A stretch of DNA of 10,144 nucleotides from Spirochaetaceae bacterium (GTDB taxonomy: Bacteria > Spirochaetota > Spirochaetia > Treponematales > Breznakiellaceae). Where the stretch lies: NCBI GenBank assembly GCA_031280115.1, contig JAITHF010000033.1:1-10144 (forward strand), read 5' to 3'. Made by a program: the position numbers and the translations under genes. Below the pieces are notes generated by a model, which saw nothing but the letters and a program-made list of their open reading frames with translations, was not told the DNA's origin and ran no database searches. Positions 1 to 3,645 of this stretch are shown one piece after another; the first letter of the stretch is position 1; every line of letters begins with the position of its first letter.

Positions 1-360
1 TTGCAGACAAGAAAAAGTTTCTTGTAGTCAAGAAAAGTTTTCTTGCAGTCAAGAAAAAGTTTCTTGTAGTCAAGAAAGGTTTTTTTGTAGTCAAGAAAGG
101 TTTTCTTGTAGTCAAGAAAAAGTTTCTTGTAGTCAAGAAAAGTTTTCTTGCAGTCAAGAAAAAGTTTCTTGTAGTCAAGAAAGGTTTTCTTGTAGTCAAG
201 AAAAAGTTTCTTGTAGTCAAGAAAGGTTTTCTTGTAGTCAAGAAAAGTTTTCTTGCAGTCAAGAAAAAGTTTCTTGTAGTCAAGAAAAGTTTTTTTGTAG
301 TCAAGAAAAAGTTCTTTGCAGTCAAGAAAAAGTTCTTTGCAGTCAAGAAAAACTATCCTG
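1..360. repeat. 21-bp tandem array of 17 palindromic units
   Basis: Units begin with CAAG at 8, 29, 50, 71, 92 and so on to 344, exactly every 21 bases with no insertion or deletion. Each unit is a 17-base palindrome, for example CAAGAAAAAGTTTCTTG, followed by a 4-base linker TAGT or CAGT. The outer arms CAAGAAA and TTTCTTG are nearly fixed; variation falls in the central three or four bases and the linker. The arms also pair across the linker (TTTTCTTG-NAGT-CAAGAAAA), so every arm has two possible partners. The last units (302, 323, 344) degrade, marking the right end. The left end lies outside the window, because bases 1-7 already match the end of a unit. There is no spacer sequence, so this is not CRISPR. 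Function unknown. Confidence 0.97.
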
Positions 361-718: not shown

Positions 719-747
719 TTGACAGGGGGATTTTAACGGGTCATTAT
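719..747 (+). promoter_or_regulatory. purB promoter, possibly leaderless
   Basis: TTGACA (719-724) is a perfect -35 box. A 17-base spacer leads to CATTAT (742-747), which matches 4 of 6 bases of TATAAT. The expected start of transcription, about 6-7 bases downstream, falls on the ATG at 753. No Shine-Dalgarno sequence lies in the usual window before that ATG; the nearest purine run, AGGGGGA, is 22 bases upstream. The -35 box directly abuts a hairpin cluster. Confidence 0.55.
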
Positions 748-752
748 CACCT

Positions 753-2219
753 ATGGAAACGCGAACGATTTTCCGCAATATTTCCCCTCTTGACCACCGA
801 TATTCGGTTTCAGACCCGGACCGGGAGCTGTTTGACGCGCTTGCCCCGCTCCTTTCAGAGGAAGCGGCGGTAGCATCCTGCGTCAAGGCCGAAATCGCCC
901 TTATCAAAGCCCACCTCTGGGCGCGCGGCGGCCTTTCGGCGGAACTGAAAGACGCCCTTGAACACAGCGCCGCCCTGGTAGACCCGGAGGAAGTGTATCA
1001 AGAAGAAGCGAAAACCCGCCATAACATCAGGGCCCTGGTACAGGTGCTTAAAAAAAAGGTTCCCCCTGAAACGGCGCATCTGGTACACCTGGGCGCCACC
1101 AGCGCGGATATTCTTGATACGGCCCATTCGTTCAGAATACGGGAAGTTACCCGGAAGGCCGCGCTGCCGCTCCTTAGAAAACTTGAAATCCTCCTCTGCG
1201 GCCGGGCCGAACAGGAGGCGGACACGGCGCAGGCCGGGCGCACCCACGGCCAGCACGCGGTGCCTATCACCGCGGGCTTTGCCTTTGCCGAATATGTGTC
1301 CCGCCTGGGCGCGTCGATCCTTGAGATTGACCGGCTTTCAGGCACCCTTAAAGGGAAACTCTCAGGCGCCGTGGGCGCGTACAACGCAACCAGCATGCTC
1401 GTCAGGGACCCTGAGGGCCTTGAGCGGCGCTACCTTGCGGAGATGGGGCTTGAACCGGCGGACCACGCGACCCAGATCGTGGAGCCTGAATACCTGCTCC
1501 GGCTCCTTTTGGAATATAACGTGGCCTTCGGGATTATCGCCAATCTAGCGGACGACCTGCGCCATCTCCAGCGCAGCGAAATCGCCGAGGTGAGCGAGGG
1601 CTTCGGCGAAGAACAGGTGGGTTCCTCAACCATGCCGCAAAAGCGCAACCCCTGGAACGCGGAGCATATAAAAAGCCTCTGGAAAGCCTTCATGCCCCGG
1701 GTAACGACCTTTTTCATGGACCAGATAAGCGAACACCAGCGGGACTTGTCGAACTCGGCGAGCCAGCGGTTCATCGCTGAATATATAACCGGCTTCTGCC
1801 TTGCGGCGAACCGGATGGCTGGCGTTATCCAAGGGCTTAGGGTGGACCGGGAGCGGCTTCTTGCAAACCTGCGGGGCAGCGCCGGTATTCCGGGGGGCGT
1901 CATGGCGGAGTGCGCCTATATTTTGCTGGCGGAAACCGGCGTCTCTGATGCCCACGAGGTTATCCGCCGGATTACCCTCGCCGCGGAAAAGGAGAATACC
2001 GGCTTCGCCGGGGCCTTGGCGAAAGAAACGGCGGCGTTTGAGCGGATTCAAGAAAAATTGGCGGGACTGGGTATCATTCAGTCGCCGGATGAAGCATTGG
2101 CGTTTTTTCAATCTCCTGAGCGCTACCGGGGGCTTTCGGCGGAGAAAGCCCGGTCTGTCGCCCAAAAATACCGGAAACTTATGGCCGGGCATACTGAGGA
2201 GGGACACGGTGTTTCCTGA
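753..2219 (+). CDS. purB: adenylosuccinate lyase
   Basis: A cytosolic lyase of purine synthesis. It removes fumarate from SAICAR to give AICAR, and from adenylosuccinate to give AMP. The 488-residue protein belongs to the fumarase/aspartase superfamily: the family signature GSSTMPQKRNP lies at residues 290-300 with the catalytic-loop serines at 291-292, and the THGQHA segment at 164-169 carries the active-site histidine region. The N-terminus (ISPLDHRYS) matches the usual start of the family, which supports the ATG at 753. The protein is somewhat longer than the common 430-470 residues, with the extra length at the C-terminus. The start has no visible ribosome binding site. The last 11 bases overlap guaB, indicating co-transcription and probable translational coupling at the IMP branch point. 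Confidence 0.95.
   Translation: METRTIFRNISPLDHRYSVSDPDRELFDALAPLLSEEAAVASCVKAEIALIKAHLWARGGLSAELKDALEHSAALVDPEEVYQEEAKTRHNIRALVQVLKKKVPPETAHLVHLGATSADILDTAHSFRIREVTRKAALPLLRKLEILLCGRAEQEADTAQAGRTHGQHAVPITAGFAFAEYVSRLGASILEIDRLSGTLKGKLSGAVGAYNATSMLVRDPEGLERRYLAEMGLEPADHATQIVEPEYLLRLLLEYNVAFGIIANLADDLRHLQRSEIAEVSEGFGEEQVGSSTMPQKRNPWNAEHIKSLWKAFMPRVTTFFMDQISEHQRDLSNSASQRFIAEYITGFCLAANRMAGVIQGLRVDRERLLANLRGSAGIPGGVMAECAYILLAETGVSDAHEVIRRITLAAEKENTGFAGALAKETAAFERIQEKLAGLGIIQSPDEALAFFQSPERYRGLSAEKARSVAQKYRKLMAGHTEEGHGVS
2197..2202 (+). promoter_or_regulatory. guaB ribosome binding site
   Basis: A perfect AGGAGG lies six bases before the GTG at 2209 and inside the 3' end of purB. It decides the guaB start: the reading frame is open much further upstream, but that part runs antisense-like through purB in another frame and carries no IMPDH homology. 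Confidence 0.85.
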
Positions 2220-3645
2220 AGCCTATTCGTATGATGACGTGCTGCTGCTGCCTGATTATTCGGAGCTTCTGCCCAAAGACTGCGACGTGCGTACTACCCT
2301 ATGCGCTGACGTGAAGCTCAACGCGCCTATTATCTCTGCCGCGATGGACACGGTAACTGAGGAAAAACTCGCTATCGCTATCGCCCTTGAAGGGGGTTCC
2401 GGGGTTATCCACCGGAACCTAAGCCCTGAAGAGCAGGCGCACCAGGTGGCAAACGTGAAGCGGTACCTTAACTGGATTATCGACGAGCCTGTGACGGTGC
2501 GGGAAGACGCGCTGGTAAAGGACGTTAAACATCTTATGGAGCGCTTTAATGTTTCAGGGATGCCGGTGCTGGATTACAGCGGCCAGACTGTGGGGATTGT
2601 TACCCACCGGGACCTCCGGTTCTGCAAGGACGACGGGCTTTCGGTGGTGGACGTGATGACCGCCAAGGTCATCGTGGTGGAAGGGGAGCCGTCAGTCTCC
2701 GCGGCACGGGAAAAGTTTGACAAACACCGGATAGAGAAACTGCCGGTGGTGGACGCGGCAGGCCAGCTTACCGGCCTTATCACCGTAAAAGACATGGAGA
2801 AACACGCCCGTTTCCCCCTTGCCGCCACCGACCGGGTGGGGCGCCTCATTGTGGGCGCCGCGGTTTCCCCGCAGGATTATCTTGAGCGGCTCCCGCTCCT
2901 TAAAAACGCCAAAGTTGATTACGTGGTGCTGGACACGGCCCACGGGGATTCAAAAAACGTGATGGCCGCGGTGGCGGGCATTAAAAAGCGCTTCGGTGTT
3001 CCGGTTATCGGCGGGAACGCGGCATCAAGAGAGGGAACCCGCCGGCTTATTGAGGCGGGCTCTGACGCGGTTAAAGTCGGTATCGGCCCGGGTTCTATCT
3101 GTACCACACGGGTAGTGGCCGGCGTGGGGGTGCCCCAGTTCAGCGCCGTGTGGGAGTGCGCCGAAGAAGCGGCAAAATCGGGCATTCCGGTTATCGCCGA
3201 CGGGGGCATCAAGTTTTCCGGGGACATATCCAAGGCCATCGGCGCCGGCGCCAGCGTGGTGATGATCGGCAATCTCTTTGCGGGCCTGAAAGAGGCGCCG
3301 GGGAAGGAGATTATCTTTGACGGGCGGATTTACAAAGAATACCGGGGCATGGGAAGCATGGGCGCCATTAAGGACGGCGCCGGGGACCGGTACCAGATGG
3401 CCAAAGACGAAGAGCCGGTTCCTGAAGGCATTGAAGGGCGGGTTCCCTACAAGGGGGAGCTTAAAAATTACCTGCGCCAGCTCGTGTCAGGATTACAGAA
3501 AGGGATGGGGTACTGCGGCTGCAAAACCATCGGCCAGTTGAAACAGTACCGGAAGTTTGTACGGATAACCGCGGCAGGGCTCAGAGAAAGCCACACCCAC
3601 GATGTAACCATTACGCAAGAAGCGCCGAACTACAGCCGGTCCTAG
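2209..3645 (+). CDS. guaB: inosine-5'-monophosphate dehydrogenase
   Basis: Oxidises IMP to XMP with NAD+, the committed step to guanine nucleotides, in the cytosol. The 478-residue protein starts at GTG, directly followed by [14 protein letters not shown], the typical IMPDH opening. The catalytic (beta/alpha)8 barrel is interrupted by a pair of CBS domains at about residues 90-205 (including VSGMPVLD and IEKLPVVD), which in this family bind regulatory nucleotides. The catalytic loop [11 protein letters not shown] contains the nucleophile Cys298. The flap includes the Arg-Tyr pair R394-Y395, followed by EGRVPYKG, and the tail [11 protein letters not shown] is also typical. All key residues are present. 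It overlaps purB by 11 bases and has a strong AGGAGG, so it is probably made from the same transcript. Confidence 0.97.

Follow-up and report, generated by a model that had tools for sequence, protein, structure and literature searches.

What does a strictly periodic row of palindromes at the very end of a spirochaete contig represent, and is it the sequence, the period or the symmetry of the palindrome that is kept? The window, by which we mean the whole analysed stretch of 10,144 nucleotides, is contig C158 of its own assembly (1.84 Mb, 62% complete, treponeme-like) and opens with a 21-bp tandem array of a palindromic unit at positions 1–352, as given by TRF (consensus TTGTAGTCAAGAAAAAGTTTC; period 21, 16.8 copies, 87% matches, 0% indels, score 473) and by its placement on the contig. 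Because base 1 of the contig is also the start of the array, the left side is cut off and the 16.8 copies are the visible part. The strict period without an indel reported in the preliminary description is borne out and is far beyond chance: the RNA folding energy of positions 1–365 lies 13.8 SD below 100 dinucleotide shuffles, and the genome-wide search proposed there finds the exact palindrome 83 times in the window's own genome against none for the reversed control. The count of 17 palindromes was slightly generous, since both exact arms are present in 12 units (CAAGAAANNNTTTCTTG, 12 times) while the other five deviate in the right arm. Similarly, the two alternative pairing registers do exist, in that an arm can pair with either neighbour, but they are no special feature, because in any homogeneous tandem palindrome array the right arm automatically pairs with the next left arm.

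On the forward strand the array passes into a flank, termed RF (353–425), recognised by its matches elsewhere and by the phase of the arrays to it, in which CTATCCTGTCCCC is followed by an inverted repeat formed around ATAAATCATTA..TAACGAATTATC, by a GGCGC hairpin and by the end TTTAAGAGAATTTGG. Positions 426–718 hold outer repeat modules, found by TRF and by matches within the own genome, with hairpins such as CAGCCTTCGGCTG and including a 62-bp direct repeat at 440–562; modules of period 62 and 56, comparable with this direct repeat, also appear in lag scans of other own contigs. The stretch 353–560 has at least 58 matches in the own genome, the best 40 of 422 first-look candidates having been scored. 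A promoter-like TTGACA-17-CATTAT (719–747, forward strand), read from the sequence, stands intact beside the composite and precedes purB (adenylosuccinate lyase; 753–2219, forward strand; Pfam Lyase_1 and ASL_C), a neighbour that serves here as context only; by eye a similar stretch precedes purB at L299 and L300, and not clearly at L302 and L303. The neighbourhood is otherwise ordinary, comprising, after purB, a gene which from reading alone we take to be guaB, a PDDEXK_1-domain nuclease, rpiA, a fused aroD-aroE and the end of a tRNA. The best 80 named relatives of the window purB are Treponema or Spirochaetaceae records, 66–78% identical and, judging by their isolate codes, presumably termite-gut bacteria.

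Array and flank recur together throughout the genome. The RF family has 91 matches (E ≤ 1e-3) across 59 own contigs, the window included, and a second flank family, LF, has 51 matches in 59 own contigs. Elements of the form LF-array-RF mostly measure 180–560 bases and have apparently inverted ends around AGAGGCGCGAARGCGCCGATAAT, which stands on LF with its inverse on RF; a third end type, GGCTCCGGCGGGCGTTTTGTTG, also occurs. Outward of LF and RF follow further variable hairpin modules, which blur the outermost boundary. The RF flank is conserved even where the adjoining arrays have unrelated units, and the window array itself shows RF only, because the contig breaks off on its other side. There is good support for assigning the window array to a dispersed, MITE-like composite whose minisatellite conserves structure. 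At one further locus (L079, G000:C153) the contig end after position 11208 follows the RF flank directly and resembles an Illumina adapter.

The extent of this dispersal is evident from several surveys. BLAST with the window array returns 46 own-genome matches, and a lag scan of 59 own contigs, the majority of them picked because of arrays or flanks, gives 96 regions at lag 21, whereas no other lag below 42 exceeds 8. The 20 own contigs not picked for arrays, a sample that excludes C5 and C9, which had already been selected for their arrays or flanks, hold 14 period-21 arrays per 104,625 bases, or about 134 per Mb; in relatives there are 4 rows of period 21–22 in 477,388 bases (40 stretches from 30 relatives). 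TRF applied to 79 own contigs yields 88 arrays of period 21 with at least 3 copies, one each of period 20 and 19 and none of period 22, alongside multiples of 21 and various other periods. Every one of the 89 arrays of period 20–22, some of them weak repeats, falls outside the genes called by a simple codon-model finder and is likely intergenic, a status that rests on an imperfect gene set because the finder missed the window guaB. For 59 of the 89 no called gene intervenes between array and contig end, such that contigs often terminate in arrays.

Beyond this genome the distribution is narrow. Among 58 genomes, the own included, element sequence occurs in the own and in three of the same genus only, with flanks in G003 and G005 and as array sequence only in G001, where 21-bp arrays alternating two unit types are seen at L099, L103 and L109. 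The strict array pattern is absent from the 57 other genomes, and the whole purB loci of five same-genus genomes contain neither array nor flank; outer-module pieces are discernible by eye at the purB locus L300. A pattern scan for the RF flank over named genomes, a set from which near records may be missing, gave no match.

What is kept in these arrays is symmetry, not sequence, and the changes between arrays are compensatory. Inside constant flanks the units differ fully (TTTGCTAGCAAAATAAGTTTG, CCGGTGAACCGGACAAGTTCT, TTTGGGTACCCAAATAAGTTT, GCGCGTTACCGCGCAAACCCT and others): 57 arrays contain 48 distinct consensus units, with in-register identity down to 0.19, and mean identity to the consensus within arrays is 0.87, compared with an average of 0.55 between distinct units. 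The best palindrome centre nevertheless lies at one offset from RF in 53 of 74 RF-anchored arrays, and 10 of 502 unit steps are off by one base. At d4, d5 and d6 Watson-Crick pairs are formed in 42, 44 and 40 of the 48 units, against column expectations of 28.5, 28.4 and 23.0, values reached in 0 of 2000 shuffles each; d2 also covaries (2 of 2000), d3 is nearly invariant, and no covariation appears at d1 or d7–d10 among the 48 units. Since shuffles of all 48 units ignore relatedness, we took as the answer 16 representatives at least 6 differences apart, in which 40 of 48 d4–d6 cells are Watson-Crick (0 of 2000 shuffles), and where sliding the partner column destroys the signal (1–10 of 16 per pair, versus 12–15 unslid). 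The earlier contention that the palindrome is kept beyond copying is thereby upheld; of the two signs of neutrality that had been named together, genome-wide scatter is present, while a lack of arm conservation beyond copying is not. Strict selection on 21 bp was considered and rejected, protection of the period against indels being not significant (9 indels to 541 substitutions within arrays, 0 to 156 between, p=0.22), and a special role of 21 bp is not supported by relatives, which keep 22–23.

The closest published case, so far as the available part of the source describes it, is BrickBuilt of Porphyromonas gingivalis, a MITE with a 23-nt minisatellite (PMC4596501). Within that compass, BrickBuilt and the own element alike place spacer-free direct tandem repeats inside flanks (leader and tail in BrickBuilt), are intergenic, form long predicted stem loops and are species-limited; the short inverted ends of BrickBuilt have a probable counterpart in the own element. 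The own arrays fall within the repeat length of about 20–25 nt (period 21; 88 arrays in 79 contigs), and conserved flanks on both sides are supplied by the RF and LF families. The two nonetheless differ, in that the 19 BrickBuilt copies share one repeat family, as that part of the paper has it (PMC4596501), whereas the own unit differs between copies (48 units in 57 arrays) with compensatory changes, and the own arrays have a far higher density and a period of 21. BrickBuilt copy no. 14 is listed as adjoining a gene for a PF00216 DNA-binding protein (Table 1, PMC4596501). REP sequences, in the sections available, are 20–40 bp palindromes sorted into sequence families, of high copy and intergenic (PMC3733652); REP/BIME and the own arrays are thus alike as intergenic high-copy palindromes, but the latter, unlike REP families, combine a strict tandem period with freely changing sequence. 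Likewise, the non-coding satellite families of Leptospira interrogans, with repeats of 37–69 nt and 3–6 satellites each, resemble the own arrays in being intergenic and spread through a spirochaete genome, and differ in that palindromic covariation is not reported in the part of the source at hand (PMC6749651).

A link between such arrays and a particular protein family comes from relatives. Genes for HU-like plus Ig-like proteins (PF14848 HU-DNA_bdg with PF14734 DUF4469) carry a 22–24-bp array at the stop codon in 42 of 53 testable loci at a score threshold of 0.65, as against 2 of 47 control windows further downstream (L279, in which a long array runs on, and L322). The loci were the best-scoring ones rather than a random draw, 59 in all, comprising 30 of 56 matches and 29 of a set of 30 (one per genome, out of 146 matches), with L313 omitted because it duplicates L269 and with the near-identical pairs L306/L307 and L311/L312 retained; six lacked downstream room. 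The 11 misses include three just below the threshold (L281, L317 and L331, at 0.61–0.63), two with two units by eye (L323, L325), two with the array upstream instead, again by eye (L334, L335), and four with no array (L321, L328, L330, L332). The arrays beside these genes are usually palindromic, like the own ones, with array-specific sequence, and their period is 23 in 43 of 46 and 22 in 3 of 46, only lags 22–23 having been offered; this 46-gene set, used also for the upstream-repeat and array surveys, excludes the seven that have no units downstream (L317, L321, L328, L330, L332, L334 and L335). PF18291 HU-HIG is found in 9 of 29 of the proteins, and the family is represented structurally by PDB 4fmr from Bacteroides vulgatus (structure comparison: VIA-align rows). 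In Parabacteroides distasonis TSDC17.2-1.1 all six DUF4469/HU-like genes found (L376–L379, L382, L383) have 23–24-nt arrays at the stop codon, and these six differ in sequence; at L379 gene and array lie within an ABC-transporter cluster. Of two loci on phage contigs, L380 has no array and L381 a weak one at 0.62. In the literature searched we found no report of arrays behind HU-like/DUF4469 genes; a Cell Cycle paper of 2017 reportedly described novel HU/IHF clades.

If the proteins simply recognised the unit sequence, the two might be expected to diverge together. For 42 of the 46 genes (at least 200 aa) the Spearman correlation of protein identity with unit similarity is 0.07, reached by 93 of 2000 permutations; in 10 of 14 protein pairs of 75–86% identity unit similarity stays within the shuffled 95% limit of 0.52, and the 65 pairs at 60–90% identity average 0.51 versus 0.46. 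Simple co-divergence of protein and palindrome is therefore rejected, the coupling being weak, and this near-independence argues against simple sequence recognition. Upstream of the same genes, within 300 nt, simple repeats (poly-C, CT, TTCACGGC and others) occur in 10 of the 39 genes with enough upstream sequence, compared with 2 of 28 control ORFs (p=0.06; L268–L335), and phase variation is possible.

Arrays of this kind also occur away from the genes. When nine gene-side arrays were searched in their four source genomes, eight recurred in similar form on further contigs of their own genome, some of these matches being weak (L269 at E 3e-5), and L274 had none; eight rows fell outside the genome from which the array came, and five of these belong to the TTTCAG type common to orthologous genes. 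Among 20 regions around such matches (19 in the same genome and one, L364, across genomes) TRF finds arrays in 17 and an open HU-like/DUF4469 frame of at least 100 aa in none, so that some arrays are orphans. At L364 (G060:C47) the array adjoins a HU-like gene that is split over several frames, and at L371 (G061:C64), near position 2256, the array directly follows the opening codons of a HU-like gene, as judged by eye. TRF reports a giant array at 3562–5443 of L358 (G060:C61), in which a 23-bp unit is repeated about 82 times.

Do the window arrays belong with these gene-linked ones? The own assembly, 62% complete, yields no HU-like/DUF4469 gene by family or by profile at E ≤ 10, nor relics in six-frame segments of 79 own contigs; no such gene is seen directly upstream of the window array, on the side that the contig lacks. 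The period, too, is 21 as against 22–23 behind the genes, and in G001 the 21-bp arrays stand apart from the gene. What the own genome shares with the relatives is tandem palindromes of array-specific sequence. As no such gene was found in the own assembly, we infer kinship with the gene-linked arrays from shared architecture, not from sequence, period or gene.

On this basis we favour, tentatively and at a little below an even chance, the following reading as a whole. The window array is one end, broken off, of a composite that is MITE-like, dispersed and likely intergenic; the dispersal, the conserved flanks and the covariation have been shown above. Its core, a 21-bp palindrome minisatellite, is homogenised within each copy and drifts between copies, yet retains its mirror symmetry, its period and its phase to the flank. 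The symmetry would be kept because the units line up as binding sites for symmetric (homodimeric) proteins of the HU/IHF type, reading either shape or a rapidly changing sequence, and the window arrays would belong to the gene-linked kind as its unlinked or orphan members, spread by the composite. The row of dimeric sites envisaged in the preliminary description gains indirect support from the relatives' HU-like genes with adjoining arrays and none from the own genome.

Palindromy could, alternatively, be made by mutation and not by selection. A selfish or neutral repeat, spread as a MITE, might maintain its core by hairpin-driven slippage and by quasi-palindrome correction, the template-switch correction of imperfect palindromes, such that symmetry would be a product of mutation and no protein would be needed. 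This explanation, which we consider a serious possibility though rather less than even, accounts for homogeneity within arrays together with free drift between them, fits a period not significantly protected and agrees with the location of the arrays in a high-copy element. It leaves unexplained, however, why the arrays of relatives in two phyla should begin right at the stop codon of a single gene family, and the fixed flank phase across unrelated units would require common descent of all arrays.

More speculative, and on balance unlikely, is a DNA address system, in which spirochaete and Bacteroidota HU-like/Ig-like proteins would each possess their own 3' array, with arrays of the same palindrome marking other sites of that genome. 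Addresses would turn over fast, making the paralogues of one cell mutually private; a simple-repeat switch of expression is possible, and the window arrays would be a runaway or orphan form amplified by the MITE.

That the arrays act as RNA, as transcribed hairpin chains serving as terminator, stability element or protein sponge, appears improbable. The predicted fold is strong (z −13.8), the arrays behind HU-like genes are placed as a 3' untranslated region would be, and in RF orientation G-T mismatches exceed A-C ones (about 102 versus 53 of 4 x 495 unit cells at d3–d6, the units not being independent, and 8 versus 2 in consensus units at d4–d6), as expected if the RF strand is the RNA. Folding stability, on the other hand, shows no significant strand preference (higher on the RF strand in 37 of 57 arrays, p=0.16), and the only Rfam family matched in the window is tRNA. 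Furthermore, the 30 arrays flanked by called genes on either side (convergent in 8 cases, divergent in 10 and codirectional in 12; all gaps of at least 200: 17, 17 and 47) have no clear place behind genes. On the strand question the signals for the hairpin-chain transcript proposed at the outset are mixed, and this reading is neither rejected nor favoured.

Intrinsically bent DNA, or a parS-like partition site, is very improbable. A period near two helical turns and the A-rich unit of the window lent themselves to this idea, but 17 of the 48 distinct units lack runs of A or T at least 4 long, which rejects a bent A-tract array, the arrays lie genome-wide rather than near one locus, and relatives have periods of 22–23. 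A CRISPR-like array, suggested by regular palindromic repeats, can practically be dismissed, since the units abut and no unique spacers separate them.

Symmetry with free sequence implies that something reads or makes shape, either a mutational process of replication or a structure-recognising protein, and either route is testable on these arrays, of which a single genome supplies dozens of natural variants. Since the relatives' arrays sit directly behind HU-like genes, the purpose of the arrays likewise becomes testable, and the pairing of gene and array provides a first concrete handle on the widespread, uncharacterised DUF4469 plus HU-like family.
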